The position numbers were made by a program, and so were the translations under genes. The notes under the pieces were generated by a model. The model saw only the letters and a program-made list of their open reading frames with translations, was not told the DNA's origin and made no database searches. From IMG/VR virus record IMGVR_UViG_3300028569_002805, positions 1 through 58,397 of that record: 58,397 nucleotides of DNA, one strand, 5' to 3'. This DNA comes from a virus. Below, piece by piece: positions 4,204 through 58,397 of this stretch. Position 1 is the first letter of the stretch. Every line of letters starts with the position of its first letter.

Positions 4204-4643
4204 TTAATTGTTTTAGTCAAAACTTCAATTGGTCTTATATCAATGTAATGAATTAGATGATGAAGTTCATCATTAACTTGAATCTTTTGATAGAGTCTGA
4301 ATTCACAAAATTCTTTGCCTCCATCGGCAAGATCAAGTAACGATTCACTTGTTCCTATTTTGTTCTGTGCTGTTTTCATTAATTCTTCGTTTACGCTATC
4401 ATCTGCTTCTAAATTTGGCATGATGATTGTAAATCCATCATCGGTTTGTTTTATATTAACGCCTTGTCTTGGATTTTGAATTTTATATTTACAAAAAATC
4501 TCTTGTGCTGGTTCACTAGTATTTCCTTTACTAAACCATACTGGTACGCATATGCCAACAACATCTATGTCTTTGCCTTCATTTAGGCTGTAGCGTTGCT
4601 CTTTGGTCAAATACAAATAGTGCGAGACAGTGAGTGTTGCCAT
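4200..4643 (-). CDS. Hypothetical protein
   Basis: This is a 147-residue protein with no recognised domain, signal peptide or membrane span. Mixed alpha/beta sequence ends in a HYIDIRPIEV strand. A good ribosome site, AAGGA, lies seven bases before the ATG, and the AATATATAG box of a likely late promoter is just upstream at 4661-4669. It therefore appears to be a single-gene transcription unit. The gene is convergent with the preceding virion-like gene, sharing TTAA as the stop for both strands, and divergent from the secreted protease. Confidence 0.68.
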   Translation of the reverse strand: MATLTVSHYLYLTKEQRYSLNEGKDIDVVGICVPVWFSKGNTSEPAQEIFCKYKIQNPRQGVNIKQTDDGFTIIMPNLEADDSVNEELMKTAQNKIGTSESLLDLADGGKEFCEFRLYQKIQVNDELHHLIHYIDIRPIEVLTKTIN

Positions 4644-4660
4644 GATTAAATCCTTAAAGA

Positions 4661-4669
4661 CTATATATT
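4661..4669 (-). promoter_or_regulatory. Putative late promoter box AATATATAG
   Basis: On the minus strand AATATATAGTC is followed by TTTAAGGA, which doubles as ribosome site, and the ATG at 4643 lies 18 bases after the box. The same box with nearly the same flank occurs before the gene starting at 10112, and on the plus strand before 48367. It resembles the T4 late promoter TATAAATA. Activity is inferred. Confidence 0.5.
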
Positions 4670-4694
4670 TTAGGCTGACAATACCGGAGTTGCA

Positions 4695-6364: not shown

Positions 6365-6402
6365 ATAATCATTCTAATGGTCATGAAACAAAAGGTAAAG
6401 CC

Positions 6403-7470: not shown

Positions 7471-7471
7471 G

Positions 7472-7963
7472 TTATTTTTTCATCCAGTTACCTTTTCTTT
7501 TTCTTAAGGCACTAGCAAGAGCCCCCGCACCAGCAGCAGCACCAAGAGCTCCACCCAATCCAACTCTTTTTTCTATTGGCATATCTGAAAATGCATCCAT
7601 GGCTGTGTGTTTTGCTCCAACCGCATGATGCAATGCATTTTTAGGATCAAAATTTTTCGTATGAGGCGCAGCCGCTCCTAAAAGCCCTCCAACACCAGCA
7701 CCTGCTAAACCAGCCAATAATATGCTTTTCGCATTTTCATCATACATTTCCCCATGATTTTCACTCAGCCATTCTGAAAATGTCGGTAATAAAAAAGATT
7801 GTTCGTTCTTCTTTTTCTTCTTTTCAGATTTATGTGATTTATATCCTTTTTTCTTCATGCTCGAAGCCAGCGCCCAAGGATTATCAATTTCTTTGTGTTT
7901 TTTCATAGCCTTGACAGTGCCTTCCCAACCGGAAGGAGCGACTTCATTAATTTTCTTTTTCAT
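7472..7963 (-). CDS. Glycine-zipper membrane or virion-associated protein
   Basis: The 163-residue protein opens with an APSGWEGTVKAMKKH segment followed by NPWALA and MKKKGYKSH, a short motif I associate with phage-encoded proteins in general. A lysine tract (48-53) follows, then FSEWLSENHGEMYDE at 62-76, which matches the N-terminal motif of two other proteins in the window. Two Gly/Ala-rich segments (near 82-98 and 134-153) look like glycine-zipper membrane helices. It is convergent with the primase, one base apart. An ATAAATA box lies 28 bases upstream and TTGGAG is a plausible ribosome site. Function unknown. Confidence 0.7.
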   Translation of the reverse strand: MKKKINEVAPSGWEGTVKAMKKHKEIDNPWALASSMKKKGYKSHKSEKKKKKNEQSFLLPTFSEWLSENHGEMYDENAKSILLAGLAGAGVGGLLGAAAPHTKNFDPKNALHHAVGAKHTAMDAFSDMPIEKRVGLGGALGAAAGAGALASALRKRKGNWMKK

Positions 7964-7990
7964 AACACTCCAATAATTGCAAGATGTTTT

Positions 7991-7997
7991 TATTTAT
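7991..7997 (-). promoter_or_regulatory. Putative late promoter box ATAAATA
   Basis: ATAAATA on the minus strand lies 28 bases upstream of the ATG at 7963, in the 57-base divergent gap. It matches the T4 late consensus core. Assignment is inferred from recurrence of the box upstream of other genes here. Confidence 0.4.
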
Positions 7998-8020
7998 CTA
8001 TAATGTATTGGGAGAATTCC

Positions 8021-8599
8021 ATGAGCGAAAAATTATACGAAGATCTTGATATAAAGGATGATCATTTTTTTGCAGGTCTTGACAAGATAATTAGCACAAT
8101 AAACTACGACACAAATAAAGTTGAGAAAAAACTTTACAGATCAGAAGTGACAAAAGATTATGCTCTGTCTAGGGTTTCAAAAGAATCTTTAGATGAAATA
8201 ATTAATGAAGATCGAAATGTAGCGACTCATGATTGCAATGTTTATAAATTCAATAACATTAGTTTTGATTTCTTGCACAAAAGACTTAGCCGACACTTAG
8301 TCGGCAGAAACATTAAATCGATGGGAATAAGTGGTCGGATATGGTATCCAGTTAATGGATATATGGGTTGGCATACAAATAGTAATAATAAAGGTTATAG
8401 GATTTACTGTACGTTTGCTAAAGAAAGCGAAAAATCATTCTTTCGTTTTCGTGATCCTGAAACAGAAGAGATCGTAACGTCTTGGGATAAACAGGGATGG
8501 AACTTTAGGATTTTTAAGATTGGTGAAAAGCCAATTTGGCATAGTGTTTTTTCTGAAACAGATAGAATTAGCATAGGATATAGTTTATACACATCATGA
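8021..8599 (+). CDS. 2OG-Fe(II) oxygenase-like protein
   Basis: This 192-residue protein has the C-terminal layout of the 2-oxoglutarate/Fe(II) double-stranded beta-helix: H118-T-N120 after GYMGW, an R-I-Y strand, FFRFRD, then H174 in PIWHSVF and R182 in DRISIGYSLY, which would bind 2OG. The usual H-x-D iron pair reads H-x-N here, so activity may be altered. Such phage enzymes can hydroxylate bases or proteins. The start is set by GGGAGA seven bases before the ATG at 8021, although the frame is open further upstream. Its end overlaps the next ATG by four bases. Confidence 0.68.
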   Translation: MSEKLYEDLDIKDDHFFAGLDKIISTINYDTNKVEKKLYRSEVTKDYALSRVSKESLDEIINEDRNVATHDCNVYKFNNISFDFLHKRLSRHLVGRNIKSMGISGRIWYPVNGYMGWHTNSNNKGYRIYCTFAKESEKSFFRFRDPETEEIVTSWDKQGWNFRIFKIGEKPIWHSVFSETDRISIGYSLYTS

Positions 8600-9015
8600 A
8601 AATTACATCTATAAAAAAATTACAAGAGCAATTTGTTGGAAAGGTATGCACTGTTTTAACAACTGGCATTGCCAAAAGTGATTTTGCAGACCATCAGTTC
8701 GCTGATTTTTTCACTGGAATAGTTGAAAGCATTGATGAAGATGGAGTTTTTACAAGACATCATGTAACTGGATGTAAAAATTTTTATACAATGCAATGCG
8801 TTGTTGGTATTGTTGAAGAACAAGTTATTGATGAAAACAATCCTGAATATCAGAATATTGTAGAAGAAATTAAGAAAAATCCACCAAAAAATCCTAATGG
8901 AATAATTGAAATTGATCCAAACAAATCACCATTCATTGATCCTGTAACACTAGCATCCTTGCAAAAACAAGCACATGATTTCAACAAAAAAATGATTGGA
9001 AAAAATCAACCTTGA
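8596..9015 (+). CDS. Hypothetical protein
   Basis: This is a 139-residue protein with no recognised domain. The first 75 residues look like a small beta barrel (alternating VCTVLTTG, FTGIVESI and MQCVVGIV strands). They are followed by a Pro/Asn-rich linker (residues 95-117) and a short C-terminal helix. It starts in an ATGA overlap with the oxygenase-like gene, so the two are probably translated together. Its end overlaps the convergent gene by 10 bases. Confidence 0.68.
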   Translation: MKITSIKKLQEQFVGKVCTVLTTGIAKSDFADHQFADFFTGIVESIDEDGVFTRHHVTGCKNFYTMQCVVGIVEEQVIDENNPEYQNIVEEIKKNPPKNPNGIIEIDPNKSPFIDPVTLASLQKQAHDFNKKMIGKNQP

Positions 9016-10112
9016 CAAAGTTGACGGAATTTCAAAATTTTTCTTTTGGTTGAGCCAACAATGTTAAATGATTCATTCGTTGTTCCCTCTTCTGGATCAA
9101 TACCTGTTAAAATACTATTTAGTAAAATATGGACTTCTCTAAGAGTTTTTGCTTTTCTGAATTGGGCAGTGAAGTATTCTTTTGGTCCACCAGAAGGTAA
9201 ACTTTCAAGCTCTATCTCGATGACATTATTTAATTCTTCATAAAAAGATTCTTTAGATTCTGGTAATCTTCCGTATAGTTCTTTGAGTTTTTCTGTGTTT
9301 CTACCAAGACTATCTAATTCTGAGATAATTATTTCAATGCGTTTCATTTCTTTTGATTTTTCTTTTTCTTGGTTTAATGGTTTAGTACTAATTGTTGGTT
9401 TATCTGCATCATCAGGTTTTGGAGAATTAACGGGTTTTGGAGAATCTTCAGTAGAAGTTAACGTATAATTTATTTTTAGTTTTTTACCTGACAATGGCTT
9501 TGTTTTTCCTATCCTATTTTCAGGGGAAAGAGGCGCTGTCTGGTCTCCAGATTTTATTTTCGGCTTTTTTTGAGGAGAAATAATTTCTGTTGTTTTTTTA
9601 ACATCTTTTCTTCTTACAATTTCTTCTTCTTCTGGACTTAGTGTATAAGATAATTTACCTAATTTTTCATATGCATCGGTGGAGGCTGTCAAAATTGGGA
9701 CAAGAACTTCTTTCATTTTTGCTTTTAGCATATTTGCATGTTTATCAATTATTTGCATAATACGCAAATTTGATAAATCTTCTTCATTTATTTTACTTTC
9801 TAGACTTTGACATGTCTCACGAAGATCGTTATAACTTTTCATTGATTCATTTTTAGATTCAGATCCAAGTCCATATCCTAATTTGTTTATTGAATAATAA
9901 GGATTTTTTTTGTTATCGTAACCATGCCATACATTAGCAACAAAATTCTTAAATCTATCCCAAATTCCACGGTTCTGAATACTTGACCCTGTTATAATTT
10001 CATGCTTTAGATCTGAAATCCATTGATTAACTACATTATCAATTTCAGAGGAAATTCTCTTAATTTCCTCTGATTTTTTTGTATCTTCGTTAATTTTTCT
10101 AAATTTCAACAT
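9006..10112 (-). CDS. Hypothetical, helical protein with Pro/Lys-rich linker
   Basis: The 368-residue protein has an N-terminal helical part (1-160), a disordered Lys/Pro/Ser-rich middle (about 165-245, with several SPKP and KP pairs) and a helical C-terminal part (250-345). It ends in a KRKILKFRQL tail that echoes its own N terminus, MLKFRKI. There is no known domain and no membrane span. AAGGAG precedes the ATG closely, and the AATATATAG box lies 16 bases upstream. A virion-associated role is possible but unsupported. Confidence 0.7.
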   Translation of the reverse strand: MLKFRKINEDTKKSEEIKRISSEIDNVVNQWISDLKHEIITGSSIQNRGIWDRFKNFVANVWHGYDNKKNPYYSINKLGYGLGSESKNESMKSYNDLRETCQSLESKINEEDLSNLRIMQIIDKHANMLKAKMKEVLVPILTASTDAYEKLGKLSYTLSPEEEEIVRRKDVKKTTEIISPQKKPKIKSGDQTAPLSPENRIGKTKPLSGKKLKINYTLTSTEDSPKPVNSPKPDDADKPTISTKPLNQEKEKSKEMKRIEIIISELDSLGRNTEKLKELYGRLPESKESFYEELNNVIEIELESLPSGGPKEYFTAQFRKAKTLREVHILLNSILTGIDPEEGTTNESFNIVGSTKRKILKFRQLCQG

Positions 10113-10127
10113 ACAATCTCCTTAAGA

Positions 10128-10136
10128 CTATATATT
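10128..10136 (-). promoter_or_regulatory. Putative late promoter box AATATATAG
   Basis: On the minus strand AATATATAGTCTTAAGGAG runs straight into the ribosome site and the ATG at 10112. It is nearly identical to the arrangement before the gene starting at 4643, which supports a real shared control element. Confidence 0.5.
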
Positions 10137-10144
10137 GTTTTTTT

Positions 10145-10603
10145 TCAATATTGTTCACTTATATATTCGCCTATTTTCTTTAGAGACATTAAGCATGAGT
10201 CAAAACGATGAAAATCACTTGAAATGTATTCAAGTGCTATTTCGTCGAATTTATCTGCCGCAACATCATCAACTTCAAAATAAATAGCTTTTCCACGTTT
10301 TCCAACAACTTTATACTTGTGCATAAGAATATAAGCGGCAGCACCAAGATCGGTTACGAACCTATAGTTTTGTGGATTGAAATTATATTCACCAATCTTT
10401 TTCAAACTCATGATGCAAGCATCAAATCGATGAAATTCACTTGATAAGTAATCAAGTGTAAGTTGGTCAAAATGTTCAATTGCGTGTTTGGGATCAACGA
10501 CAAAAAAAATGTCTCTTCCTTTTCTTCCAACTACCTTCAAATCATGCATAAGAAGGTAAGCGGCAGCACCTAAGTCGCTGACGCTCTTCTGATTATATTT
10601 CAT
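10145..10603 (-). CDS. Tandem-duplicated small domain protein (DUF5659-like)
   Basis: This 152-residue protein is two copies of one domain of about 70 residues. Each copy has DLGAAAY(L/I)LMH, then KVVG(R/K)(K/R)G, a FF/YF-x-V strand, LDYLSS or LEYISS, FHRFD and MSLKKIGEY. The pattern resembles small phage and plasmid proteins filed as DUF5659; function is not known to me. The copies are diverged at DNA level, so the duplication is old. It lies 15 bases downstream of the actin-like gene and is probably in its operon. AAAGG precedes the ATG. Confidence 0.75.
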   Translation of the reverse strand: MKYNQKSVSDLGAAAYLLMHDLKVVGRKGRDIFFVVDPKHAIEHFDQLTLDYLSSEFHRFDACIMSLKKIGEYNFNPQNYRFVTDLGAAAYILMHKYKVVGKRGKAIYFEVDDVAADKFDEIALEYISSDFHRFDSCLMSLKKIGEYISEQY

Positions 10604-10618
10604 TCTTTGCCTTTCTTT

Positions 10619-11626
10619 TCACTTCGATGAGGATTCTGCTGCTATCAAGCATCCTCTACTAACCGAATACAATGGGTCAGCAGGCTTGATGACATTGCCA
10701 ATTTTTATTGGCAATTCAAACCCGCTAAGGGTTTCCTTAAATATTTCTGTAAATCCATTAGGAGAACTGGTTCCACCAGCGATTACCACATCAATTTCGC
10801 CATCAGTCCTGACAGACTTATTGATGTCTGAGAATCCTTTTTTTAGTCCATTAACAGCATGCTCGATCATAAGTCTATACTGAGTATGGATTGCTCTTTC
10901 GATAAGATTAGTTGGAGATTTAGATAAATCTATTTTAGTCTTTTCTTTATTGATAAATGAAATGCTTTCGCCAGTAGCCTTAGCTGCCTGTCGATCAATC
11001 CAGTCTCCTGAGTTCACAATCGCAAAACTAAAGACAGGACTGCCATACATTGCATAGCAAACATTTATCATTCCTGCTCCAAAACTTGCGGCAATACCCG
11101 TGAAGGCTTTCTTCCCAAGTTCTGCATAAACTAATGCTAAGGCTTCGTTAATTGGATGCGCCTCTACTCTATATCCTGTTTCATTTTTATAAGCATTGAA
11201 AATTGCTTGTAGAATTCTCTGGTGATAATCAGCATCGGTGTCTTGATTAACGGCATTGGCTGGAACGCAATAATACAATATTTCGCCGTCTTTTTTAACA
11301 CCTTCAATCAAGTTGTGCATCATGATGCTCATGATTTGAAAAGCATCTTTTTCTTTTGGATTAACACATCCGTGAGTCATTGGGCGTTTGAGTTCCAATA
11401 CACTCATTGTATAAGTCATTTCAACTGCTGCTTCGCCAAGTGCGTATGCTCTTTTTTCAAGTTCAATCAATGGAACTCCAGCTTGTTTCATCATGTCAAA
11501 AACAAACCTATTTTCCAAAGGCATTTCAAGAAAAGCATTTACTTGACGATGATAAGTAAAGTTTCCTTCTTCATTTCTGCGGCAAAAAACGAGATTATAA
11601 GTTCCAACGTCCATTGAACAAGCCAT
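10619..11626 (-). CDS. Actin/MreB/ParM-fold ATPase
   Basis: This 335-residue protein has the three nucleotide-binding signatures of the actin-Hsp70 fold: MDVGTYNLVF at 5-14 (phosphate 1), SFGAGMINV near 190 (phosphate 2) and VIAGGTSSPNGF near 285 (adenosine). The length suits ParM- or MreB-like proteins, with no Hsp70 substrate domain. A filament role in DNA or virion positioning is a reasonable guess; a polymerising protein cannot be told from an ATP-dependent switch by sequence alone. AGGAGA lies six bases before the ATG. It is followed by the duplicated-domain gene and preceded by a small unknown gene 11 bases away, so a three-gene unit is likely. Confidence 0.75.
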   Translation of the reverse strand: MACSMDVGTYNLVFCRRNEEGNFTYHRQVNAFLEMPLENRFVFDMMKQAGVPLIELEKRAYALGEAAVEMTYTMSVLELKRPMTHGCVNPKEKDAFQIMSIMMHNLIEGVKKDGEILYYCVPANAVNQDTDADYHQRILQAIFNAYKNETGYRVEAHPINEALALVYAELGKKAFTGIAASFGAGMINVCYAMYGSPVFSFAIVNSGDWIDRQAAKATGESISFINKEKTKIDLSKSPTNLIERAIHTQYRLMIEHAVNGLKKGFSDINKSVRTDGEIDVVIAGGTSSPNGFTEIFKETLSGFELPIKIGNVIKPADPLYSVSRGCLIAAESSSK

Positions 11627-11637
11627 TTCATTTCTCC

Positions 11638-11898
11638 TTATACTTTCTTTCCAAATTCAACTTTAGGTGTAGAAGTAAAATCAGGAATCTCCCACTTAGG
11701 ATTGTCATTAGTTGTTCCTGTCTTTTTTGCAACAGGAGAATCTGCAACAACATGAGTGGGCGCAACGACAATTTTTAGATCGTCGCTGTTCAAATTGATT
11801 GTAAGCTCTAAAGAAATAGTGACATGTAGTTCGCCATCTTGAGTTACAACCTTAACCGTATTTGGCTTCAATAAATTAGCCAATTTGCCTCCACACAA
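11638..11898 (-). CDS. Small hypothetical protein with non-ATG start
   Basis: This protein of up to 86 residues has one beta-rich half (VKVVTQDGELHVTISLELTI) and a Pro/Lys/Thr-rich tail. There is no in-frame ATG. The longest form starts at TTG 11898, but a GGAGG ribosome site lies just before an internal TTG at 11883, which may be the true start (81 residues). It lies 11 bases before the actin-like gene on the same strand and could be its small partner. No domain recognised. Confidence 0.55.
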   Translation of the reverse strand: MCGGKLANLLKPNTVKVVTQDGELHVTISLELTINLNSDDLKIVVAPTHVVADSPVAKKTGTTNDNPKWEIPDFTSTPKVEFGKKV

Positions 11899-11917
11899 CC
11901 ATTCACAGTCATTATAG

Positions 11918-12865
11918 TTAGTTCTGCGAATGAATTTTATTTTTCCATGGCCATATTGTAAAAAGCTGGTCTATCCCTGATTTAATTTCATCATCAGAAA
12001 TCTCTGTTAAACAAGGCTTTAGTTCATTCTTTGTTTTTGGACAAGATCTGAAATTATAACATGGTCCACAATCCCATTTGCCACTGTCAATATGTTTTTG
12101 AACTAGAACAAAGTCATAATATTTTCCATAAGTCTTTCCATTAGCGAATGTAAATATGCCTAGAAGAGGCTTTTTAAGACCTCCAGCCAAATGAAATGTT
12201 GCTGTGTCTACAGAAATAACATAATCAGCTGAAGCGGTGTAATAGATCCATTCTGTCAAGCTAGTATTTTTTATTGTTTGAAATCCATATTTATCATTAT
12301 CTTTTTTACTTAAAACAACAACATTGAAATCACTCAAATAATTGTCAATGATATTCAAGTGATGAGGAGTAAGACATTTAGTTTTGATTGCAGAGTCAGG
12401 AGAAAAAATTATGATTGGTTGATCTTTCTTTTTTCGGAATTCTTCAAGTTTATTTTGATATATCTTCAAAAGATCGGGATTCAAATTAAAATGCATACTA
12501 TGATCTTCTAATTCATATCCGCATGATAATGCCCAGATATCAGATCGATGTAATTTACATTCAATTCCATAAAAGCTTTCATATTTATTTGAAATTTTAA
12601 CATCAGTTTGATAAAAAACTAAATATTCTTCTTTTTTAAGTTCTTGTGGTTTGATAAATTTATCTATAAAAGGATGATCTTTTATTGCGTCCAAATATTG
12701 ATCTAAACAGCAAAAATGAATTTCTGCATCTGGGATTATGCGTTTGACATCTGCAAGACACATTCTATGTATAATGATATCGCCAAGACCTCCCCAATCT
12801 GAAATAAAAAGTATTTTATTTCTTTTCGTGTAAAAGTCTTTGATAGAAAGATCGCCATTTCTCAT
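11918..12865 (-). CDS. Glycosyltransferase family 9 (heptosyltransferase-like)
   Basis: This 315-residue GT-B enzyme starts with a GGLGDI loop at 25-30 after the first strand, the GT9 N-terminal signature. The C-terminal half holds SVDTATFHLAGG, matching the D-(S/T)-x-x-x-HLA nucleotide-sugar motif. The last 60 residues carry several cysteines (CGPC, SCPKTK, CLTE). Known family members add heptose or related sugars to lipopolysaccharide core. In a phage it may alter host surface glycans or decorate virion proteins. It sits directly after the terminator of the putative abundant virion gene. Confidence 0.85.
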   Translation of the reverse strand: MRNGDLSIKDFYTKRNKILFISDWGGLGDIIIHRMCLADVKRIIPDAEIHFCCLDQYLDAIKDHPFIDKFIKPQELKKEEYLVFYQTDVKISNKYESFYGIECKLHRSDIWALSCGYELEDHSMHFNLNPDLLKIYQNKLEEFRKKKDQPIIIFSPDSAIKTKCLTPHHLNIIDNYLSDFNVVVLSKKDNDKYGFQTIKNTSLTEWIYYTASADYVISVDTATFHLAGGLKKPLLGIFTFANGKTYGKYYDFVLVQKHIDSGKWDCGPCYNFRSCPKTKNELKPCLTEISDDEIKSGIDQLFTIWPWKNKIHSQN

Positions 12866-14693: not shown

Positions 14694-15001
14694 TCTTCTG
14701 ATCTTTTCAAATGCATTCTGTGAATCATGAAGGAACCACTGTCTACTGAAACATACATGTAATGACCGTTTTCTTCTGTGATCGTGCCACCATTTTTCTT
14801 GAAATCTTTGGCGACTTCCAATAATTCGCCCTCTTGAGTTTCTATTCTTGAAATTAATTTTTTCAGAGGAATCTTTGACTCAATTTTAAGACCAACCATA
14901 TTAGATTTGTTAGCATCATGCTGATTTGACATCCATTTTTTGAAATCACTCAGATTGAATGGGCCAAAAGGATCGTCACTTGTGTAATTCCATTTATTCA
15001 T
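14690..15001 (-). CDS. Small hypothetical protein with F-x-x-W motif
   Basis: This 103-residue protein starts at the ATG at 15001, eight bases after GGTGG; the frame is open further upstream but inside the previous gene. Residues 20-31 (FKKWMSNQHDAN) resemble the F-x-x-W-(L/V) motif found in several other proteins of this window. The rest is a small alpha/beta fold ending in YVSVDSGSFMIHRM. Its start overlaps the end of the preceding gene by eight bases, so translation is likely coupled. Function unknown. Confidence 0.65.
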   Translation of the reverse strand: MNKWNYTSDDPFGPFNLSDFKKWMSNQHDANKSNMVGLKIESKIPLKKLISRIETQEGELLEVAKDFKKNGGTITEENGHYMYVSVDSGSFMIHRMHLKRSED

Positions 15002-15863
15002 ATTTTTCACCACCTTGTTGAAAAAACGGAAGGATATCTTCCTCACTTATATATGGTGCATGCTTATATTCTTGACTGCTTGAATGATCAGCTAATTTTG
15101 TTTCATAATAAGGGTGATTTTTAAGCCAATAAAAAAATCCATCAATAATTCCATGAGCCATTTGTTGTTGTGGATATTCATATAATCCGTTATTTAATTT
15201 TATTGATCCTGCCCTTTCTCCGCTAAAACTATCATCGCAACATAACAATAATATTTTTTCTGCCCCAAAATGATAGGCTAAATTTATTGCAGCACAAATA
15301 GAGTTTCTATTGTCATCAACCTGCCAACGAGCTTCTTTCATGCCAATTCCTGCATATTTACTTTCATTTACAGGATAATATTTATACTTTGCTCCTTTGT
15401 ATGCACTCATAAATTTATAATTAGTTCTAGATGATGATATACATTTAGGCAAAATTCTTCCTCTTCTTGGCAAATATTTCATGCATTCTTCGTATGGATT
15501 ATTGACTACATACCACGACATAGATCTTTCTGATAAATTCCATTTTGCCAAAGAACCATTAACTCCTATAATCGAAACTGATTTTGGTAAACTTGCGAGA
15601 ATATTCTGTTTTTTAACAAAATCATAACCATCAGAAACGATAACAACATCTTTTGTCTGAAAATTTTCAGAATCAATCCAAGTATATTTGTCAAGACTAT
15701 TTTTTGTTTCATTTTGCAAAAATGTAAAATAATCTTTATTGTCAATAGTTTGATTCAAATCAATATAAGGAACTTGCTCCATTGTAAAATCACGGACCCA
15801 CATCCCTTGTGGGGTTAAATAATATTTGTTGCCATCAGAGGCTTTTTTAATTCTTTCAGACAT
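14994..15863 (-). CDS. MptE/DUF115-like protein (Maf glycosyltransferase-related)
   Basis: This 289-residue protein contains DVVIVSDGYDF, VSIIGVNGSLAKW and AEKILLLCCDDSFSG segments with a Rossmann-like layout. It recalls the MptE-like/DUF115 family that includes Maf flagellin glycosyltransferases. The ATG at 15863 (MSERIKK) is chosen since the frame upstream runs into the preceding fibre gene. It lies 17 bases after the giant repeat fibre gene on the same strand, which suggests a job on that fibre, such as glycosylation. Family assignment is by eye and moderate. Confidence 0.6.
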   Translation of the reverse strand: MSERIKKASDGNKYYLTPQGMWVRDFTMEQVPYIDLNQTIDNKDYFTFLQNETKNSLDKYTWIDSENFQTKDVVIVSDGYDFVKKQNILASLPKSVSIIGVNGSLAKWNLSERSMSWYVVNNPYEECMKYLPRRGRILPKCISSSRTNYKFMSAYKGAKYKYYPVNESKYAGIGMKEARWQVDDNRNSICAAINLAYHFGAEKILLLCCDDSFSGERAGSIKLNNGLYEYPQQQMAHGIIDGFFYWLKNHPYYETKLADHSSSQEYKHAPYISEEDILPFFQQGGEKYE

Positions 15864-15879
15864 ATAATCAATTAAGTTA

Positions 15880-18800
15880 TCAAGCTGGTTTATTACAAGG
15901 AACAAGAGCGAAACATGGTTGGTCACCATTCTCACCTGTCAACTTACTAACATCAAGATTGATCTTGATATCAATAGGAGATCCCTTGTAAACAAGTTCA
16001 ATTTCTGGTTTATCAGGCATAACCAACTTGATTTCAGAAGGAGCTCCAAAAAGTTCAATAGCAGAAGGAATTCCAACAACTTGAATCTTGTCAGGAATTC
16101 CTGATGCATCTATTTGTATTTTTGGCATAATTTCTGGAACTTCCAGTTTAATTGAACTAGGAAGACCAAATGTTTCAAGCCTTATAGATGATGGTAAATT
16201 TGTTGTCAAAAGTTCAATTGTTGATGGGAAATTATCAGCATTAATTGTAATCTGACTAGGAATTGCAACATCAGGACCAATGATTTTTATGTCGGGAATT
16301 ACTGGTGCTTCAATCCTGATAATTGCAGGAATATCATGGATAATCCTAATATCGGGTATTTCTGGAACTTTCAAAGTAATTTCAGAAGGAATGCCAATAT
16401 CATTTGATTGAATTTCAACAGGCTCAATTGGACTATAAGATCTCTCCTCAGAGAAAAGATCTGTATTCCTATTCATTGCAAATGGAGTCGATGAAGGACA
16501 TGCAATTGTCACAACACAACTTACAACTGGAGGATTGCCCCAATCAATTTTAATTGGACCAAGAGTTGGAACACTAATGTAAATTGGCCCAAGTTTTGGA
16601 GCATCAATATAAATAGGACCAAGCTTAGGAACTATTACACTAATTCTTGATGGAATGTCATCAATAACGCTAATTTTATATGGGATGTCATCAATAACAA
16701 TGATTTGATATGGGATGTCATCCAAAACATATATAACATCTGGAATACTGTGAATTACTTGGATGACATCTGGCACATCATCAAAAACATATATTTCTAC
16801 AGGAATATCATCAAAAACTTCAATAGAAACAGGTATGTCTTCTATGACACTGATTCTAACTGGAATATCATCAATAACGCTAATTCTAATTGGAATGTCA
16901 TCAATAACACTAATTTTAGTTGGAATGGTGGCAACTACGCTAATTATGGATGGTATAGTGCCAACAACTGAAATTAAACTTGGTATTTCTTGAACAACTG
17001 AAATTAAACTTGGTATTTCTTGAACAACTGAAATTGTACTCGGTATTTCTTGAACAATTGAAATTGTACTCGGTATTTCTTGAATAACTGAAATTGTACT
17101 TGGTATTTCTTGAATAACTGAAATTAATGTCGGTATATTTGCTATTACTGAAATTAATGTCGGTATATTTGCTAGTACTGAAATTTCTAAAGGAATATCG
17201 TCAACCAGAATAATGCTTAATGGTATGCTATCAAGAACAGGAATGTTCAAAGGTATGCTATCAAGAACAGGAATGTTCAAAGGTATGCTATCTTGAACAT
17301 AAATTTCAGTAGGTACGCTATCAAAAACAGTAATAATCGAAATAAAAGGTCCGCCAATCAATGTAATCGTTGATGTTATAGGACCACCAACCAATGAAAT
17401 TATTGTTGGCAAATTTCCAGTAAATGAAACTATTGAAGGCAAATTTCCAGTAAATGAAATAGTTGTGGGCAAATCATCAATTACATAAATTATATCAGGA
17501 ATATCATCACTCAAAGATATAATCGATGGAAGAGGAGTAACTGAAATAATTGATGGAATATTAGTGAAAACTGAAATAATCGTTGGAATATCATCTTCTA
17601 CTATTATTCTATCAGGCAAATCATCAAGCAAAGGTATGTTGTCTGGCAAATCATCAAGCAAAGGTATGTTGTCTGGCAAATCATCAAACAAAGGTATGTT
17701 GTCTGGCAAATCGTCAATAAAAGGTATGTTGTCTGGCAAATCATCAAACAAAGGTATGTTGTCTGGCAAATCATCAAACAAAGGTATGTTGTCTGGCAAA
17801 TCGTCAATAAAAGGTATGTTGTCTGGCAAATCGTCAATAAAAGGTATGTTATCTGGCAAATCGTCAATAAAAGGAATAATATCTGGTAAATCATCAAGCA
17901 ATGGGATAATTGATGGAACATCATCAATCACAGGAATTTCGGTTGGAAAACTACCTGTTATGGAAATAGTTGTAGGAAGAGGAGTAATTGAAATAATTGA
18001 TGGAATATTACCTGTTATGGAAATAATAGTTGGAATATTACCAATCAAAGGAATTTCGCTTGGAAAACTACCTGTTATAGAAATAGTTGTAGGAATGAAT
18101 ATAGGTGTAACTGAAACTATAGAGGGAATGTTAATTGGCGGAACAATGCTGATAACGCTAGGTACATTGATTGGTCCAACAGGTCCAATATTCAAATATG
18201 GGAAAACAATTGGAGGAATTTGTGGTGTTACTGAAGGAACAGTTATGTTTGGCACTGTAATAAAAGGAAAATTTGGTATTACAGGAATAGGAATTTCAAA
18301 CGCAATTGTCGTGCTTGGTGTCTGTGGTTCATTAACACTCAATCTTTCAATAGGAGTCTGAATTATTGTGCAGTTATCGTTAGATGCAGTTAAAACAGGA
18401 TCTATTGTTGAGTTAGGTGGATATGTATGAGTTCCAGATGTTGATGTAGTTGTAAAAGTTCCATCACCAAAATCAAGTCTATAAGAAGTAAAAATTCCTG
18501 TAAGAGTAATATTGTATCTTGCGACAGTTCCAGTTGCAGGATTTACACTAATAATCAAAAAATCAAAAACAACATCAGGACACGAATAATCATCTATTAT
18601 TATGTCCAATGCGGCAAGATTTCTGATTCTCCAGTCAAGCGTTGTTGTGTCAGGTGTTTGATTATATCCAATAAATTTTTCAACTTTTATAACTGCATCA
18701 ACAAGCTGGTTGTGATGATTTCCAACTACAAATCCACGAACTTCTGATCCAGCAGGTGTTTTCTTAGTGTGTGTTCCGCTTAGATTCCTTGAACATCTTT

Positions 18801-19056
18801 TGAATTTATTTATTTTACCATTTTCATCGTAACCAACAGAATCGTAGTAAAATAATTCACCATCTATGTTGGCGAATCCATTTTTTGCCCATTGTTCTGC
18901 CGTAGTGGCAGAAACAGGAACAATTGGAATCTCGTCCGACCAAGGCAGATTTACTTCGCTGCTGACAGTTTCAGATGTATTGTACACGAGGTACAAAGTT
19001 TCGTCGCTGTCATAATTTTTTGGGTAGACAGGTGCTGGTGGAAAGTAGTTGGCCAC
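15880..19056 (-). CDS. Giant decapeptide-repeat fibre/adhesin with PKD domain
   Basis: This 1,058-residue protein has three parts. Residues 1-150 are an N-terminal domain shared with the next two upstream genes (NHHNQLVDAVIKVEKF near 112-127). Residues about 150-235 are a PKD-like Ig domain (YRLDFGDGTFT, THTYPP). Residues about 258-830 are some 45-50 ten-residue repeats of the form (D)-(D)-(I/L)-P-x-x-I-x-V-(I), followed after a Cys-containing break by a second weaker repeat region to about 1030. The alternating hydrophobics predict a beta-solenoid or extended fibre. The start is GTG with AAAGGG upstream. Order in the operon (fibres downstream of the baseplate) supports a receptor-binding or fibre role. 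Confidence 0.8.
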   Translation of the reverse strand: MANYFPPAPVYPKNYDSDETLYLVYNTSETVSSEVNLPWSDEIPIVPVSATTAEQWAKNGFANIDGELFYYDSVGYDENGKINKFKRCSRNLSGTHTKKTPAGSEVRGFVVGNHHNQLVDAVIKVEKFIGYNQTPDTTTLDWRIRNLAALDIIIDDYSCPDVVFDFLIISVNPATGTVARYNITLTGIFTSYRLDFGDGTFTTTSTSGTHTYPPNSTIDPVLTASNDNCTIIQTPIERLSVNEPQTPSTTIAFEIPIPVIPNFPFITVPNITVPSVTPQIPPIVFPYLNIGPVGPINVPSVISIVPPINIPSIVSVTPIFIPTTISITGSFPSEIPLIGNIPTIISITGNIPSIISITPLPTTISITGSFPTEIPVIDDVPSIIPLLDDLPDIIPFIDDLPDNIPFIDDLPDNIPFIDDLPDNIPLFDDLPDNIPLFDDLPDNIPFIDDLPDNIPLFDDLPDNIPLLDDLPDNIPLLDDLPDRIIVEDDIPTIISVFTNIPSIISVTPLPSIISLSDDIPDIIYVIDDLPTTISFTGNLPSIVSFTGNLPTIISLVGGPITSTITLIGGPFISIITVFDSVPTEIYVQDSIPLNIPVLDSIPLNIPVLDSIPLSIILVDDIPLEISVLANIPTLISVIANIPTLISVIQEIPSTISVIQEIPSTISIVQEIPSTISVVQEIPSLISVVQEIPSLISVVGTIPSIISVVATIPTKISVIDDIPIRISVIDDIPVRISVIEDIPVSIEVFDDIPVEIYVFDDVPDVIQVIHSIPDVIYVLDDIPYQIIVIDDIPYKISVIDDIPSRISVIVPKLGPIYIDAPKLGPIYISVPTLGPIKIDWGNPPVVSCVVTIACPSSTPFAMNRNTDLFSEERSYSPIEPVEIQSNDIGIPSEITLKVPEIPDIRIIHDIPAIIRIEAPVIPDIKIIGPDVAIPSQITINADNFPSTIELLTTNLPSSIRLETFGLPSSIKLEVPEIMPKIQIDASGIPDKIQVVGIPSAIELFGAPSEIKLVMPDKPEIELVYKGSPIDIKINLDVSKLTGENGDQPCFALVPCNKPA
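17615..17904 (-). repeat. 30-bp tandem repeats coding DDLPDNIP(L/F)(L/F/I)
   Basis: Nine to ten units of exactly 30 bp start at 17615, 17645, 17675 and so on to 17885. They are nearly identical, differing mainly at the codons for the last two residues. The units lie in frame in the fibre gene and there is no spacer, so this is not a CRISPR. High identity suggests recent expansion by slippage or recombination. Confidence 0.93.
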
Positions 19057-19103: not shown

Positions 19104-21425
19104 TTAAAAAATAGCCATATTCCATTGACTTCCAGATGGTCTACTTGTCACACTACTAAATGTAGTGTCTATATCGTTAAACTTGAAGAAAGACTTTTGA
19201 CTATAATCAAAACTTAGATAAACCACATGATCATTATCAGAAGCAGCCAGTAAAGTCTGATTTTCACTATCAAAACCAACAACTGTTGAATCTTGCAAAG
19301 CCTTGAATGATGGAGAATTAACTCCGGGACCACCCGTTCCCCACACTCCTGTTGTTGCATTATAAGCTGAAACAGAACCTGAATTATTGAAAAAATAAAC
19401 ACCTGTTGACAATGAAACAAGTTGTCCTTCTATTTTAGATGGCCCAGCCATATCAGTTAATTTTCTAATATCAATAAATGGTTCGCTTGTATTGCCACTG
19501 GTCTTATAAAAACTTCTAATCCTAAAAAATGTACCAGTTCCTTGATTCCTAAGTAAAAATCCAGAATCACTATGCCAGCAAGATCTGTATATGCTAATGT
19601 GTCCTTGTACAGGATTTCCGTTTTCATCATATGTTACTTCATTTTGCTGTAACTCATCAGCACCATTCTTATAATTAGATGATAATAAAGTAGAAGCAGG
19701 ATTAACAGAAGCCAAACTTGATAACGATACAACATCTTTATCTTGATTTGTTGGTGATGTGCCAGATGGAACAGAACCTACTACTCCTCCAAGAGCAAAA
19801 TAAATATTTGTACTTGATGCAAAACTTACCCAGTTCCAAGGTCTTTGGATTTCTACCCCAGCTTTAGAAAAACCTGATGTGTAAACTTGCGTAAAACCAT
19901 TAAATTGAGAACTATGTATTTTTTCATTTAGTGAAGAACTATTTGCTGGTCTTCCACTTGCCCAGAACAGTATTCCAGTACCGCCATTTCCTGAAGATGC
20001 TGCTGTTCTTGGAGCAAATCCAACATTCCTGTTAAATTCCTTAAGCTGTTGTGCAGAATTAACTACAGGATTTGTATTGGTGTTAACAAGGAAAGATTGA
20101 TTTACATTCAAAGAAACTGGAGCAACAGCATTTTTGAATGTTTCACTTAACAAACCAAATTCGCATACAGAAGCTTGTGTTTTTGAATTGTTGTAAATCC
20201 AAAGCCAAAGATTGACTTTTTCTACAATGTCGAAGGCATTATCATATGTAGTTATTTTGTAGGCACCAAACCTTGTATCACATCGCAATACAAGGTCGTA
20301 ATTTCCTCCAACACTGTATACTGCTCTTGTAGTGTTTGAGTTTCCATGGCCTAAATCATCTGAAAGTGACCAAGTATATGTTTCAATAGGATCAATAATG
20401 TTTCCGTCACTAATTACTTCTCCTCCATATGTTACTCCGGGTGTGTTGGGATTTTCACCAGTAGGAATATACATGTCAATAAGTGAATTAATTGATGCAC
20501 GAAGAATTGGTGTTGTAGTAAAAGGACCACCTGATGGTATGCCTTCTTGTTCAATAATCTGATTTGCTCTTGAAACGAATGCAATACAGGCATCGTTGGG
20601 AGCGGGGAATCGAGCAGAAATTAAATCATTGAATATTACTGTATCTTCACCAAAATCATTGATGACTGTAAGTTTTACGGTGTAAAGGCCGGGTTCATTA
20701 TATGTTTTTGTTATTGATTCGCCATCTATATCTTCAACTATAACATTTGAAATACTCGTTGGAACATATGATGTTAAAGAAATATTTGATGCGGTTGATT
20801 CAAGAGTTATTCCAGAAATGACAGATACGGTATTATCGCCAAAATCCCAAATATGTTTCACATTTATAGAAGAACCATCTGTTCCAAGTCTAAAACTCTG
20901 ATCGGTGAATGTAACTGTAAGAGGAGCAAGACCAATGTTTTTATTTATTGTAAACCAAGCCTTTGGTTGCAAAGCAATATTGCGAAGATAATTAATTCTT
21001 TGCTCCATTGTGCCTTGTGTGGGCTTTGTCCCAACTTCACCTTTTTTCCCAGCAAATTTTTCAATAGCTATGACTGCATCTTTCAAGTTGTTATGATGCT
21101 GGGCCATCACATTTTGTGTAACACTTGTTAGATTTTTCGGTTTTGCATTATCGACAAATCCTGACAACAAAGTTAAACCTTCAAATGTTGTCAAGGTTCT
21201 TAATGTATATGAAAAACTAATTGCTCTTTGTTCTGGTTCAGCACACTGATCAGTCAGGGTTATAATTCCTGTGTCGCTGAAAAGACGCATTGTAGTTTCA
21301 TCACCAAGGACTGTAATGATGGTATCGCCTACATTATAGTCTTCTATAAGTTTGACCCGTAGGCCATCTGCCACCTGATAAAGGGTGATGTCGCTATCAA
21401 GAGTATTTGGGAAGTTACTTGCCAT
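19104..21425 (-). CDS. PKD-domain tail fibre/adhesin-like protein
   Basis: This 773-residue protein has the same N-terminal architecture as its neighbours: a beta-rich start (SDITLYQVAD), MAQHHNNLKDAVIAIEKF near 105-122, then at least one PKD-like repeat with HIWDFGDNTVS and GLYTVKLTV (residues about 160-260) and a second, weaker one (YTWSLSDDLGHG, about 345). The C-terminal 370 residues are Ser/Asn/Gly-rich and beta-like, with strings recalling propeller blades (SLSTGVYFFN, VVGFDSENQTLLAAS). GGTGGAA precedes the ATG, and the start overlaps the previous stop by one base. A surface-binding tail protein is the likely role. Confidence 0.75.
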   Translation of the reverse strand: MASNFPNTLDSDITLYQVADGLRVKLIEDYNVGDTIITVLGDETTMRLFSDTGIITLTDQCAEPEQRAISFSYTLRTLTTFEGLTLLSGFVDNAKPKNLTSVTQNVMAQHHNNLKDAVIAIEKFAGKKGEVGTKPTQGTMEQRINYLRNIALQPKAWFTINKNIGLAPLTVTFTDQSFRLGTDGSSINVKHIWDFGDNTVSVISGITLESTASNISLTSYVPTSISNVIVEDIDGESITKTYNEPGLYTVKLTVINDFGEDTVIFNDLISARFPAPNDACIAFVSRANQIIEQEGIPSGGPFTTTPILRASINSLIDMYIPTGENPNTPGVTYGGEVISDGNIIDPIETYTWSLSDDLGHGNSNTTRAVYSVGGNYDLVLRCDTRFGAYKITTYDNAFDIVEKVNLWLWIYNNSKTQASVCEFGLLSETFKNAVAPVSLNVNQSFLVNTNTNPVVNSAQQLKEFNRNVGFAPRTAASSGNGGTGILFWASGRPANSSSLNEKIHSSQFNGFTQVYTSGFSKAGVEIQRPWNWVSFASSTNIYFALGGVVGSVPSGTSPTNQDKDVVSLSSLASVNPASTLLSSNYKNGADELQQNEVTYDENGNPVQGHISIYRSCWHSDSGFLLRNQGTGTFFRIRSFYKTSGNTSEPFIDIRKLTDMAGPSKIEGQLVSLSTGVYFFNNSGSVSAYNATTGVWGTGGPGVNSPSFKALQDSTVVGFDSENQTLLAASDNDHVVYLSFDYSQKSFFKFNDIDTTFSSVTSRPSGSQWNMAIF

Positions 21426-22483
21426 TATTCCACCGTAATATTTTCATTCAAGAATGATCTCTGAAGCTTTTGATTTTCATAAAGGACTAATAAAGAAGGA
21501 TTGTATTTACCCGGTTTATCATAAACATATGAAATATAATGAATATTTGGGTTGGTTTCAGTAATGCTTTCTCCATTAACTGGAGATCCATTGTTAGTTC
21601 CAGAACCATCAAATACCCAAAATCGCTGTATTATATCACCATCTGTTTGATCTACAAAATTAAATGTTGTTGCCATGTTTGGATTACCCATGGAAATAGC
21701 TGTTTCCATTGAAATTCCAATTGTTGGTTTGATGTAAAAAAATGGTGGAATTGTTGTTTGATCAATAGTAATATAATTTTTCTTTTCTGAAACTCCTTGA
21801 GCTCCAAGATTACTAATGATATTCAGCTTAATCGTATATTTTCCTTCTTTCAAATATGTATGGGTTGGCGATCTTTCAATAGATGTTGTTCCATCTCCAA
21901 AATCCCATAGATATCGAACTACTGAACCAGTGCTAAAGTTTTGTAGTCTTATTTTGGTCCCCGGAGGGCCGCTTTTAGGATATGCACGAAATATGGCTTT
22001 AGGGGCAAGATACTTGCTCTCCTGAGCCTTTAATATGCCATTTAACGAGGTTACAGAAGGATTGCTTATCAATCCAAGATTTGTTTCTATGTTGATGACT
22101 GCATCTTTTACAGAATTGTGATGTTCTGCGAATACTGCTCCTGTTACATAACTTCCTATTGGCCAAGGATTCTGTCTTGAACCGGCAAATCCACGAATTA
22201 TATTTTTGAACACTCCTTGGGTTTTAGTGTCATAATATATCATCTCAGCAGCACCTTGTTGACCATGTGCTGGACCAACACGGATTATGCCGCTGCTTGG
22301 AAAATTATCATTGTTATCTACTACTACGAACTTGGCAGAATATGTCAAAGACTGTGCTAGTTGTGTTTCGCAATTGTTCTTAGCCTCATAAAGCTGATAT
22401 TTTGAATCATAAGCTTGAGGATAAACAGAAAGATCGCCAGTTACATATCCTGTGTCGTATGAGCTAATTTTTGTAACCGCCAT
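21425..22483 (-). CDS. PKD-domain tail protein, third paralogue
   Basis: This 352-residue protein comprises a beta-rich N-terminal domain, FAEHHNSVKDAVINIE near 120-135, and a canonical PKD domain (YLWDFGDGTTS, THTYLKEGKYTIKL, residues about 180-240) followed by a second Ig-like stretch. It ends without any large C-terminal receptor domain, so it may be a shorter attachment subunit for the two longer paralogues. The ATG at 22483 follows AAGGAGA; a TTG one codon upstream is less likely. The start shares its A with the TGA of the preceding gene. Confidence 0.75.
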   Translation of the reverse strand: MAVTKISSYDTGYVTGDLSVYPQAYDSKYQLYEAKNNCETQLAQSLTYSAKFVVVDNNDNFPSSGIIRVGPAHGQQGAAEMIYYDTKTQGVFKNIIRGFAGSRQNPWPIGSYVTGAVFAEHHNSVKDAVINIETNLGLISNPSVTSLNGILKAQESKYLAPKAIFRAYPKSGPPGTKIRLQNFSTGSVVRYLWDFGDGTTSIERSPTHTYLKEGKYTIKLNIISNLGAQGVSEKKNYITIDQTTIPPFFYIKPTIGISMETAISMGNPNMATTFNFVDQTDGDIIQRFWVFDGSGTNNGSPVNGESITETNPNIHYISYVYDKPGKYNPSLLVLYENQKLQRSFLNENITVE

Positions 22484-23190
22484 CAATTCTCCTTGTCTAT
22501 CTTTGTCTCAAGTCTTTTTGCAGTTTCCGCTAGTTTATGAAGTATTTCGTTTTGTTTCACATTGAGAGTTTGCAATGTCTGTTGCTTGATTTTAACATCA
22601 TCGGGCAGAGCTACTATTGTCTCAATAAGTTCAGTATCGATTGAATTTTGTGTTAACATTTTAAGATTGACTTTTTGCGTCAATTTCTCATGCCAATATT
22701 GTTTTTGCGCCTCCAAATCATCAAAATGCTTCAATGGTTCAATCTTGAGGAGATTTTTGTATGTTTCCAAGAAAAATCTACACTCTTCAGAAATTGATTT
22801 TTTCCTTTCTTCAATTTCTTTAATATTTTGTTCCAAAGATTTCTTTTGACGACCAAATTGACGGATTTTTATTTCACATTCTCTCATGTAAAGATTATTT
22901 GAAACTTGATCCGTAATTTGAATATTTTCCATGTCATGACGAATTCTTTCAACACTAATATCTAGTAGTTCTAGCTTATCTTTTAACTCTTCAGTTTCCA
23001 ACTCTATATTTTTAGTTGTATCATTACGATTCTTCATTTCACGCAAACATTGCCACATCTTTGATTGAACTGTTGGTTCTTTACCAATAAGGAAATACTT
23101 CAACTGAAAATAACTATGTCTTTGCGATATTTCATTTTCGCTCAAAACTTTGTCAACTTCTGCATAAACGCTCAATTCAACATTATTCAT
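22483..23190 (-). CDS. Coiled-coil protein upstream of fibre genes
   Basis: The 235-residue protein is almost wholly helical and strongly charged, with heptad-like Leu/Ile spacing over residues about 60-150 and again 180-230. No enzyme motif or membrane segment is present. It is translationally coupled (TGATG) to the PKD fibre gene, and AGGAGA precedes its ATG. By position it could be a fibre assembly chaperone, but nothing in the sequence proves that. Confidence 0.65.
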   Translation of the reverse strand: MNNVELSVYAEVDKVLSENEISQRHSYFQLKYFLIGKEPTVQSKMWQCLREMKNRNDTTKNIELETEELKDKLELLDISVERIRHDMENIQITDQVSNNLYMRECEIKIRQFGRQKKSLEQNIKEIEERKKSISEECRFFLETYKNLLKIEPLKHFDDLEAQKQYWHEKLTQKVNLKMLTQNSIDTELIETIVALPDDVKIKQQTLQTLNVKQNEILHKLAETAKRLETKIDKEN

Positions 23191-23200
23191 TTCAATCTCC

Positions 23201-23737
23201 TCAGCACATCTTGCTGCCTATTATTGCCTTAAACTTACATCCATACTCAATAGCTGACATTGCCCATTCTGCTTTTACAAATTCTAATGAACCTTCATCA
23301 TTCATTTCTCCAACTTCTTTGAATGTTTTTTTGTTAATGAAAAGACCATTTAATGTTCCATCAATAAAATTATATTTTCTGTTTGCTACAGGAAAAAGAA
23401 TATCTTTTTCACTTCCAATATAAAAAGAAAATTTTTCGTTCAATTTTTGTCTTACGTTTGTTCCTGAAAAAATAAGAAAAACCCAATCTAAAGGAGCGTG
23501 ACGCATCCCAACATTAATCAAAGATGTAATTGTATCTTTGCCTTTATAAACTGGACAAATTTCTTTAATTTCAGCAGTCTCTTCTTTTGTTGCTTTTGAA
23601 TCTACAACAGTTATACAGGGAATATCAGGATAATGATAATTAATTGAATTGTAAGTAATATTGATAAGACTTTTAGAGTGTTCTGGAGCCAGAATCACAA
23701 AACAATATTTCAATGTTTTTAATGCAAAAGTTTTCAA
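23201..23737 (-). CDS. GT-A glycosyltransferase-like protein
   Basis: This 178-residue protein begins with a CFVILAPEHSKSLINITYNSI strand-helix and continues with PCITVVDSKATKEE, KDTITSLINVGMRHAPLDWVFLIFSG and LFINKKTFKEVG. This is the layout of GT2-type GT-A folds, where an Asp-x-Asp would be expected; here the position reads FSGTN, so activity is doubtful. The start is TTG at 23737, with GAGGG nine bases upstream inside the preceding terminator stem. It lies 10 bases before the coiled-coil gene on the same strand. Confidence 0.55.
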   Translation of the reverse strand: MKTFALKTLKYCFVILAPEHSKSLINITYNSINYHYPDIPCITVVDSKATKEETAEIKEICPVYKGKDTITSLINVGMRHAPLDWVFLIFSGTNVRQKLNEKFSFYIGSEKDILFPVANRKYNFIDGTLNGLFINKKTFKEVGEMNDEGSLEFVKAEWAMSAIEYGCKFKAIIGSKMC

Positions 23738-29302: not shown

Positions 29303-30862
29303 TTACTCAAATGTGAAAGTAATATTGATCACATCTGGTCTGATGATCTCAAAGAACCTTGCATTTACTATATTGCCACCATTGTTGGGATTGTCAGTAG
29401 TAAAAGTAATATCAATATTTTTTATTTCCTTCAAATCTGACAATGTTTTTGTAATGTCAATTTCTCTAAGCTGTTCTCCAAATTCCCAATTGTTAATTGC
29501 AAAGAACTGATCAAGCCTTCTTTTTATCTTAATCCTAAATTCTTCTTCAAATTTTCTATACAACCTGTCCATAACGACATCAACACTTATATCTACGGCA
29601 ATGATCGCTCCATTTCTTATACAAACAAAATCAGTGATCATCTTTACATTTTCAAGATATTTTTCTAAAGAAACTTTTAGATCAGAACTTGCTTCCTGCA
29701 AACCATCTAATCCATTTCTAGCTAGAACATAAATATCAACAATATTACCAGAACATCCATGATTACGCAAAACAACAGTTGATTTTCCGATCAATCCTTG
29801 ATATGGAGTTGAAAACTGATCTGTCAGAGTTTTATAATCAAGACCAGTTACTGCCCTGTTTTGAGATCTTGTCCAAGCTGGCAATTTATTTCTAATGTCA
29901 TCAATAGTATCGCCATCATAGCCATACTCACCCTTTGTGTAATTTCTTAACACTACAGGAATTCCATAAGGAATTCCTGCAATACTGACAATTGCCTGCT
30001 TTTCAATTGTTCCGCTGACAATGTTTCCTATTGTTCCACCTCCCTGACGATAAACAATTTTAATTACACTTCCTGAACTAGGAACAAGACCAGCTATGTT
30101 GTTTCCAAAAATAACGAAAGCTGTCCAAGTTGAGTCATACTCAACACGATATTCTCTTCTAGGCTGAGAATCAGTAAAATATGGAACTTGATCCCACTTC
30201 ATACCATCAACATAAACCATTATTGAATCAAATATGACAGGATTATTGTTAAGAGTAATTGTTTGGCCAACAGTACCATTGCCAGAAGTATTAATTGTTC
30301 TCGTTTTGCCTTCAAGACCAATAACACTGGCATTCACAATATTACCAGCTGGAATTATTATATCTTGGTCAAAAATAGGATTGTTATCAGCGTCAGCAGG
30401 ATAAAGTTCAATTGTAATCGACTGACCACCAGCATTGACTGAAACATCAAAAGGAGCAGGAATTGGAACGTCTTGAAGAATAGGATTGTTCAGATTTGCT
30501 GTCCATAGTGATCTAGCAGCAATAGGAGGCTGTGGATCAAAACCAACCAATCTAGCAAGCCTAAACGCATTTTCTACTTCTGTCACAGTATCAATGAATA
30601 TTTCATTTGCTATCTGATCCATTTTGAAAGACAAAGTATCAGCTAAAAATGACCAGTTCTCAATCAACATGATTGCAATAGAAGATTCAACGAAATCTGC
30701 AAAATCTGTGCTGAATTTTTGCCTGACATATTCAATCAGACGAGTCTTCATGCTCCAAAAATCTTGGTTCGTATAATTCAAATTAAATATACTAGGCGTA
30801 GTAATCAGTTGCGACTGAGTATATGGCGTAATATCAAATGGACAGCTATTGTTTGTCGCCAT
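29303..30862 (-). CDS. Baseplate J-like wedge protein (T4 gp6/P2 J)
   Basis: This 519-residue protein forms the baseplate inner ring. The N-terminal helical region (FADFVESSIAIMLIENWSFLADTLSFKMDQIANE, given in part) is typical of the gp6/J family. A mid-protein YDGDTIDDIRNKLPAWTRSQNRAVTGLDYKTL block near 310-345 resembles the conserved J core, and the C-terminal half has short helices and strands. AAGGAGA lies before the ATG. Position between the gp25-like and I-like genes is as in P2 and T4. Confidence 0.85.
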   Translation of the reverse strand: MATNNSCPFDITPYTQSQLITTPSIFNLNYTNQDFWSMKTRLIEYVRQKFSTDFADFVESSIAIMLIENWSFLADTLSFKMDQIANEIFIDTVTEVENAFRLARLVGFDPQPPIAARSLWTANLNNPILQDVPIPAPFDVSVNAGGQSITIELYPADADNNPIFDQDIIIPAGNIVNASVIGLEGKTRTINTSGNGTVGQTITLNNNPVIFDSIMVYVDGMKWDQVPYFTDSQPRREYRVEYDSTWTAFVIFGNNIAGLVPSSGSVIKIVYRQGGGTIGNIVSGTIEKQAIVSIAGIPYGIPVVLRNYTKGEYGYDGDTIDDIRNKLPAWTRSQNRAVTGLDYKTLTDQFSTPYQGLIGKSTVVLRNHGCSGNIVDIYVLARNGLDGLQEASSDLKVSLEKYLENVKMITDFVCIRNGAIIAVDISVDVVMDRLYRKFEEEFRIKIKRRLDQFFAINNWEFGEQLREIDITKTLSDLKEIKNIDITFTTDNPNNGGNIVNARFFEIIRPDVINITFTFE

Positions 30863-30873
30863 CGAATCTCCTT

Positions 30874-31290
30874 TTATGCTAGCGGAATTTCTAAAACCAA
30901 CTGTTGTACTTCTTTAATGTTTTGCGGATCAACGAAAATAATTTTCACTGACAAAATATGCTCTGATTCTGTTGCGTCATCATCATTATTGAGTGAGGAT
31001 GAATCTATTTGTGAAGTTACTTCTATATTTTTAATTGCAATTCTTGGTTCCCACTTTGCAATTGCATTGGTTATGACAGATCTAGCTTGATTTTGCAAAG
31101 TCACATCATTTTGCTCAAACAATAGTTTTTTTAATGGCGTACCAAATTCTGGAATCATTACCCTTTCACCGGGATTAGTCAGCAAAAGACAAAGTAAATC
31201 AGATTTGATCTGATTTACCCCTGTCTGTGAATGCCAATAACCTCTAGGTGTTTTTCTCGTTGGATAAGGTAAACCTTCAAAATTTGTCAT
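30874..31290 (-). CDS. Baseplate wedge gp25/W-like protein
   Basis: This 138-residue protein fits the gp25/GPW family in length and motif: LLCLLLTNPGERVMIPEFGTPLKKLLFE at about 32-60, then ITNAIAKWEPRI near 85 and a beta-rich end. This protein starts sheath assembly and joins wedge to hub. AGGTTAAT precedes the ATG. It lies between the spike and J-like genes, the order seen in P2 (V, W, J). Confidence 0.92.
   Translation of the reverse strand: MTNFEGLPYPTRKTPRGYWHSQTGVNQIKSDLLCLLLTNPGERVMIPEFGTPLKKLLFEQNDVTLQNQARSVITNAIAKWEPRIAIKNIEVTSQIDSSSLNNDDDATESEHILSVKIIFVDPQNIKEVQQLVLEIPLA

Positions 31291-57740: not shown

Positions 57741-58397
<657 letters not shown>

Follow-up and report, generated by a model that had tools for sequence, protein, structure and literature searches.

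A proline-marked repeat array of variable length in a putative tail fibre of huge phages

The window analysed here, which comprises the whole stretch of 58,397 nucleotides, is a 58-kb piece of the genome of a contractile-tailed phage. It contains a terminase, gp25, an OB-domain spike and gp6-like wedge genes, and a Tail_P2_I-like protein in the window scores slightly under the Pfam cut-off. Downstream of the contractile-tail baseplate genes and further along the window stand the genes of p353, p773 and a 1058-aa protein, which is referred to here as the fibre protein and is the subject of this study. The features of the window are given in Table 1. At the end of the contig, 13 ACA triplets are followed by 2.5 copies of an exact 63-bp unit, which suggests a repeat or an assembly break.

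Table 1. Features of the window and the evidence on which each assignment is based.
Feature	Position	Strand	Evidence
Putative fibre gene, 1058 aa, GTG start	15880-19056	(-)	ORF listing
N-terminal domain, residues 1-150, common to p353 and p773	18607..19056	(-)	BLASTP, AlphaFold2, Foldseek
PKD-like domain, residues 158-240	18337..18585	(-)	profile match, Foldseek
Linker rich in proline, residues 241-320, PPIVFP conserved	18097..18336	(-)	alignment
Decapeptide array with five strict blocks (47 units in total), residues 321-838	16543..18096	(-)	
14-unit sub-array, mainly DDLPDNIPFI, residues 370-509	17530..17949	(-)	
Strict block with the most units (23), residues 581-810	16627..17316	(-)	
Conserved C-terminus with degenerate P-x-x-I-x-Phi units, residues 839-1058	15883..16542	(-)	alignments, AlphaFold2
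Neighbouring gene p773, PKD, related N-terminus	19104..21425	(-)	Pfam, BLASTP
Neighbouring gene p353, two PKD matches, related N-terminus	21425..22486	(-)	Pfam, BLASTP
gp6-like and gp25 genes of the baseplate wedge (tail module marker)	29303..31290	(-)	
Volactin (actin-family) gene	10619-11626	(-)	
GT9 gene, glycosyltransferase-like	11918-12865	(-)	
MptE-like gene, glycosyltransferase-like	14994-15863	(-)	
p178, glycosyltransferase-like	23201-23737	(-)	
ORF in another frame of the array	17564-18361	(+)	
ORF in another frame of the array	17604-17927	(-)	
ACA triplets and 63-bp tandem unit	58148-58397		

The count of strict units in the array agrees with the 45-50 decapeptide repeats claimed in the original prediction, and the five blocks comprise residues 321-360, 370-509, 519-558, 581-810 and 819-838. 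An autocorrelation over residues 256-860 gave an identity of 0.529 at lag 10 as opposed to 0.117 in shuffles (z 31), with lags 20, 30 and 40 likewise elevated, and the DNA of the array contains 30-bp tandem repeats. The ten-residue period proposed for about 570 residues was recovered, although calling it strict slightly overstated the case, as the register is interrupted around residues 361, 510 and 560-580. Alignment of the units bore out the predicted consensus, which reads I/L, P (the anchor), S/D/T, x, I, x, V/L/I, I/V/L, D, D, with the isoleucine present in 52 of 61 units. When neighbouring units were compared by codon, pS was 0.39 and pN 0.22; in the isoleucine column, which was not used as an anchor, pN was 0.02 as opposed to a pS of 0.42, so that the repeat is kept by selection at the protein level. 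The open reading frames in other frames of the array are by-products of the 30-bp repeats and not genes.

With an N-terminal domain, a PKD-like domain, the array and a baseplate neighbourhood, the protein has the modular fibre or adhesin architecture that had been predicted. Its N-terminal domain had been described as common to two neighbours, which was confirmed by BLASTP among the N-termini of the fibre protein, p353 and p773 (3e-16, 9e-6 and 4e-13), the p773 match being short. The AlphaFold2 model of this domain has a pLDDT of mostly 75-89 over residues 31-110, and a Foldseek comparison of the N-terminal region with models of phage tail fibres gave BcepMigl at an E-value of 1.9e-4, with low TM scores and multi-domain alignments. 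It is probably the part that docks onto the baseplate. The assignment of a PKD domain held for the fold, as Foldseek matched PKD1 of PrtV with a probability of 1.00 and a TMt of 0.63-0.68 and a profile search matched a collagenase PKD structure (E 0.0044), but not for the Pfam sequence cut-off, as PKD_4 scored 17.9 bits and thus under the gathering threshold of 27 (PKD, PF18911/PF00801). The C-terminal region of about 220 aa is the probable distal end of the fibre.

In line with the earlier statement that the unit belongs to no named family, neither the array nor the C-terminus was covered by a family in Pfam, PHROGs or the PDB. The C-terminal model found no match in the PDB, and in a structure search with the full-length model only the PKD/Ig-type and phage beta-domain matches were worth reading. 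Weak likenesses were rejected. An IpaH-type LRR protein (3cvr, phmmer E 0.003) has spaced "LP" motifs, but the match is compositional, Pfam gives no LRR family match, and the unit of the window family has 10-12 residues. The tail fibre of HTVC120P (E 3e-6) and PDB 9lc0 (E 0.1, a compositional match) are likewise phage fibres with ten residues per unit; however, their decapeptides are different, being of the N-I-x-x-V-x-x-V-A type with hydrophobics at 3-3-4 spacing and, in HTVC120P, without proline, and their N- and C-terminal domains are not in common with those of the window protein.

Among 50,697 deposited phage records, the 595-kb uncultured huge phage LR756511.1 contains the sole relative with both conserved ends, and its units have 11 residues (type PPSFDCISFCQ). 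In IMG/VR, the whole protein retrieved 12 loci, the C-terminus 58 loci and the N-terminus 162 and 183 candidate stretches in its searches, the latter counts including a number of p353 paralogues and contigs that were retrieved more than once; the contigs with relatives reach 532,729 bases. In the collection of genome contigs, the sole relative confirmed at the sensitivity used lies in a Neisseriaceae MAG (L154, RXKI01000042.1), which may be a hint at the host or a mis-binned phage contig. Another IMG/VR candidate (L016, 3300020185_000107, 4245-12251, 26% identity, 2669 aa) is without both conserved ends and was treated as convergent; its ORF is made largely of FIDNVNTETP- and YIDNVNYQDN-like units and seems unrelated to the window family. 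Of the distinct N-terminal fibre ORFs, 34 are complete and 32 are cut off by the end of the contig, since the arrays break metagenome assemblies and the protein is therefore often seen as fragments only. A literature search found no relevant account of a repeat-fibre family in huge phages.

Between the fixed ends, the array may be absent or may extend to roughly 1580 aa (L097). Clear periodicity is lacking in 17 of the 32 full-length orthologues, about half of them, which counts against reading the repeat as a fibre shaft. Those that have an array show a dominant period of 10, 11 or 12, and a few fragments have a period of 8 or 9. A tree built from both ends requires at least six changes of the period state, and all three main periods occur among the window's nearest relatives; thus, the ten-residue period described for the window protein does not hold for the family as a whole. 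In units from across the family, which were anchored on Phi-P-x-x-[I/V/L], a hydrophobic residue occupies position P+5 in 90-95% of cases and position P+4 in 13-23%, an alternation that is beta-strand-like. Since this pattern is the same at every period, the core Phi-P-[S/T]-x-I-x-Phi is constant and the turn variable. In the nearest relative (L006), whose C-terminus is 93% identical, the units in the 3' half of the array align one to one apart from a single gap of 12 residues near 562-573, and in the 5' sub-array the DDLPDNIPFI units are mostly exchanged for DDITPTIIVE units at an unchanged period. Judged from such alignments, the array would turn over through local homogenisation. Some orthologues (L069, L071, L072, L074 and L002) have cysteine-rich 11-residue units such as FDCISFCQPPS and EPVCFCEPPSF; links through disulphides or metal are conceivable for these units.

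The full-length AlphaFold2 monomer, calculated from 24 sequences, is confident in the N-terminal and PKD domains, shows a short strand once per unit in most units of the array at a pLDDT of about 45-70 over much of residues 470-780, and has low confidence past residue 760. The C-terminal 235 aa, modelled as a monomer from 62 sequences, are extended with no intrachain sheet (pLDDT 61, pTM 0.15). The strands in most array units count against an oligomeric shaft and speak for a monomeric beta-solenoid, in which a unit would be one face or half-coil and the coils would stack within a single chain, with loops that can differ in length. However, the pLDDT is low, the more diverse C-terminal units are without intrachain sheet, and AlphaFold2 is reported to be biased to beta-solenoids, which it over-predicts for repeat sequences, so that the array strands are weak evidence for a solenoid (PMC11795689), and we regard this shaft as unlikely. 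The narrow beta-solenoid that had been suggested is not established. A largely extended or disordered proline-rich spacer with no fixed fold would agree with the low pLDDT, with the proline content of the arrays (11-29%) and with the rapid change in length, but it is very unlikely given that about 40% of the residues are hydrophobic and strictly alternating and that the isoleucine column is under selection; neither a confident disordered model nor a match to a well-described repeat family was obtained.

The sheet-free C-terminal model is mild evidence for a structure formed between chains, such as a triple beta-helix or a beta-bracelet; the low confidence of the monomer may also merely reflect a shallow alignment. 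In the triple beta-helix of T4 gp34, the beta-strands are hydrogen-bonded between chains only and no clear sequence motif is present (PMC5537660). The extended C-terminal monomer without intrachain sheet fits such bonding between chains better than a solenoid, and an inter-chain shaft is the reading that we prefer; as a triple beta-helix it would rise at the general beta-sheet spacing of 4.8 A per unit. T4 gp34, gp12 and gp5 are trimeric fibres of contractile tails with aliphatic-rich strands and short loops, although no sequence similarity was found between them and the window protein; in contrast to gp34, the window unit is highly regular and proline-marked, and a trimer of the window protein is putative. 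Another inter-chain arrangement is the beta-bracelet of the Orsay virus delta protein, whose 8-residue unit consists of a Phi-x-Phi-x-Phi strand and a 3-residue loop with a rise of about 15 A per segment (PMC7565637). A homopentameric or other bracelet-like fibre of this type, built end to end from units of five-residue strands and three-residue loops, would account for the short alternating strand and the short, often acidic loop of variable length (PMC7565637), but the window family has a period of 10-12 instead of 8 and a conserved proline, and thus falls outside the definition of a beta-bracelet. Furthermore, Orsay delta is a pentamer of an animal virus without the conserved proline, and no sequence match was found between it and the window protein. 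To our knowledge, a bracelet-like fibre has no precedent in phages, and we consider it very unlikely here.

The gene order p277-p178-phrog1409-p353-p773-fibre-MptE-like-p205-p192-GT9-volactin is recurrent and was kept in most of 150 related loci, either whole or up to the contig edge, several of these loci being overlapping views of one contig. Together with the resemblance of the N-terminal region to predicted fibre models, this neighbourhood makes the putative role as a tail fibre fairly well supported. Alternatively, the virion protein could sit at another site, as a tail whisker, head fibre or sheath decoration, since jumbo phages can bear whiskers along the tail, as described for phage CBB (PMC5259590); such a location is quite unlikely, however, as the gene keeps its place close to the baseplate genes and the protein has a fibre-like N-terminal region in common with two neighbours. 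The volactin gene (E 3.7e-63) also stays beside the fibre cluster in the related loci.

Glycosyltransferase-like genes lie beside the fibre genes as well. The GT9 gene was matched at an E-value of 8.6e-8, all 15 orthologues of the MptE-like/DUF115-type protein match PF01973 (best 2.7e-6), and p178 gave weak GT2 and GmaR hints only. The MptE-like/DUF115-type family includes the flagellin Maf glycosyltransferases, and the candidate enzymes in the window may glycosylate the fibre proteins or the host surface. A link between these genes and the array was considered and rejected: p178, p205 and GT9 are jointly absent from one array-less clade, yet a second array-less clade retains them, and they therefore have no specific tie to the array.

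Taken as a whole, we give about even chances to the reading that the protein is a huge-phage tail fibre with an intertwined, homo-oligomeric beta shaft that is lengthened by added units. We infer a component of the virion whose oligomeric, beta-structured shaft would help it to reach a receptor. The N-terminal domain would attach it to the baseplate, the PKD-like domain would serve as a spacer, the repeats would build the long shaft, and the conserved C-terminus would be a distal tip for folding or binding. Each unit would form a short beta-strand, Phi-P-[S/T]-x-I-x-Phi, with alternate side chains pointing inward, and would lead into a turn of about 3-5 residues. Several chains, most likely three, would intertwine, with main-chain hydrogen bonds formed mainly between chains. 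The turn would shift by 1-2 residues and whole units would be gained or lost; as only the strand would be constrained, the turn and the number of units would be free, and the length of the fibre could evolve fast with both ends fixed. More tentatively, and with doubt prevailing, the Phi-P-[S/T]-x-I-x-Phi repeat may represent a beta-fibre fold absent from solved structures, with a constant strand and an elastic turn, which serves as a shaft of adjustable length.

Tail fibres as such are known; what is new here is the proline-marked, putative shaft repeat in an undescribed protein family of huge phages. If the proposed reading is true, it would define the tail-fibre shaft of huge phages that belong to a widespread but uncultured lineage. 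The repeat, simple and modular and readily tuned in length by natural evolution, would then offer a test case for the relation between fibre length and host range.
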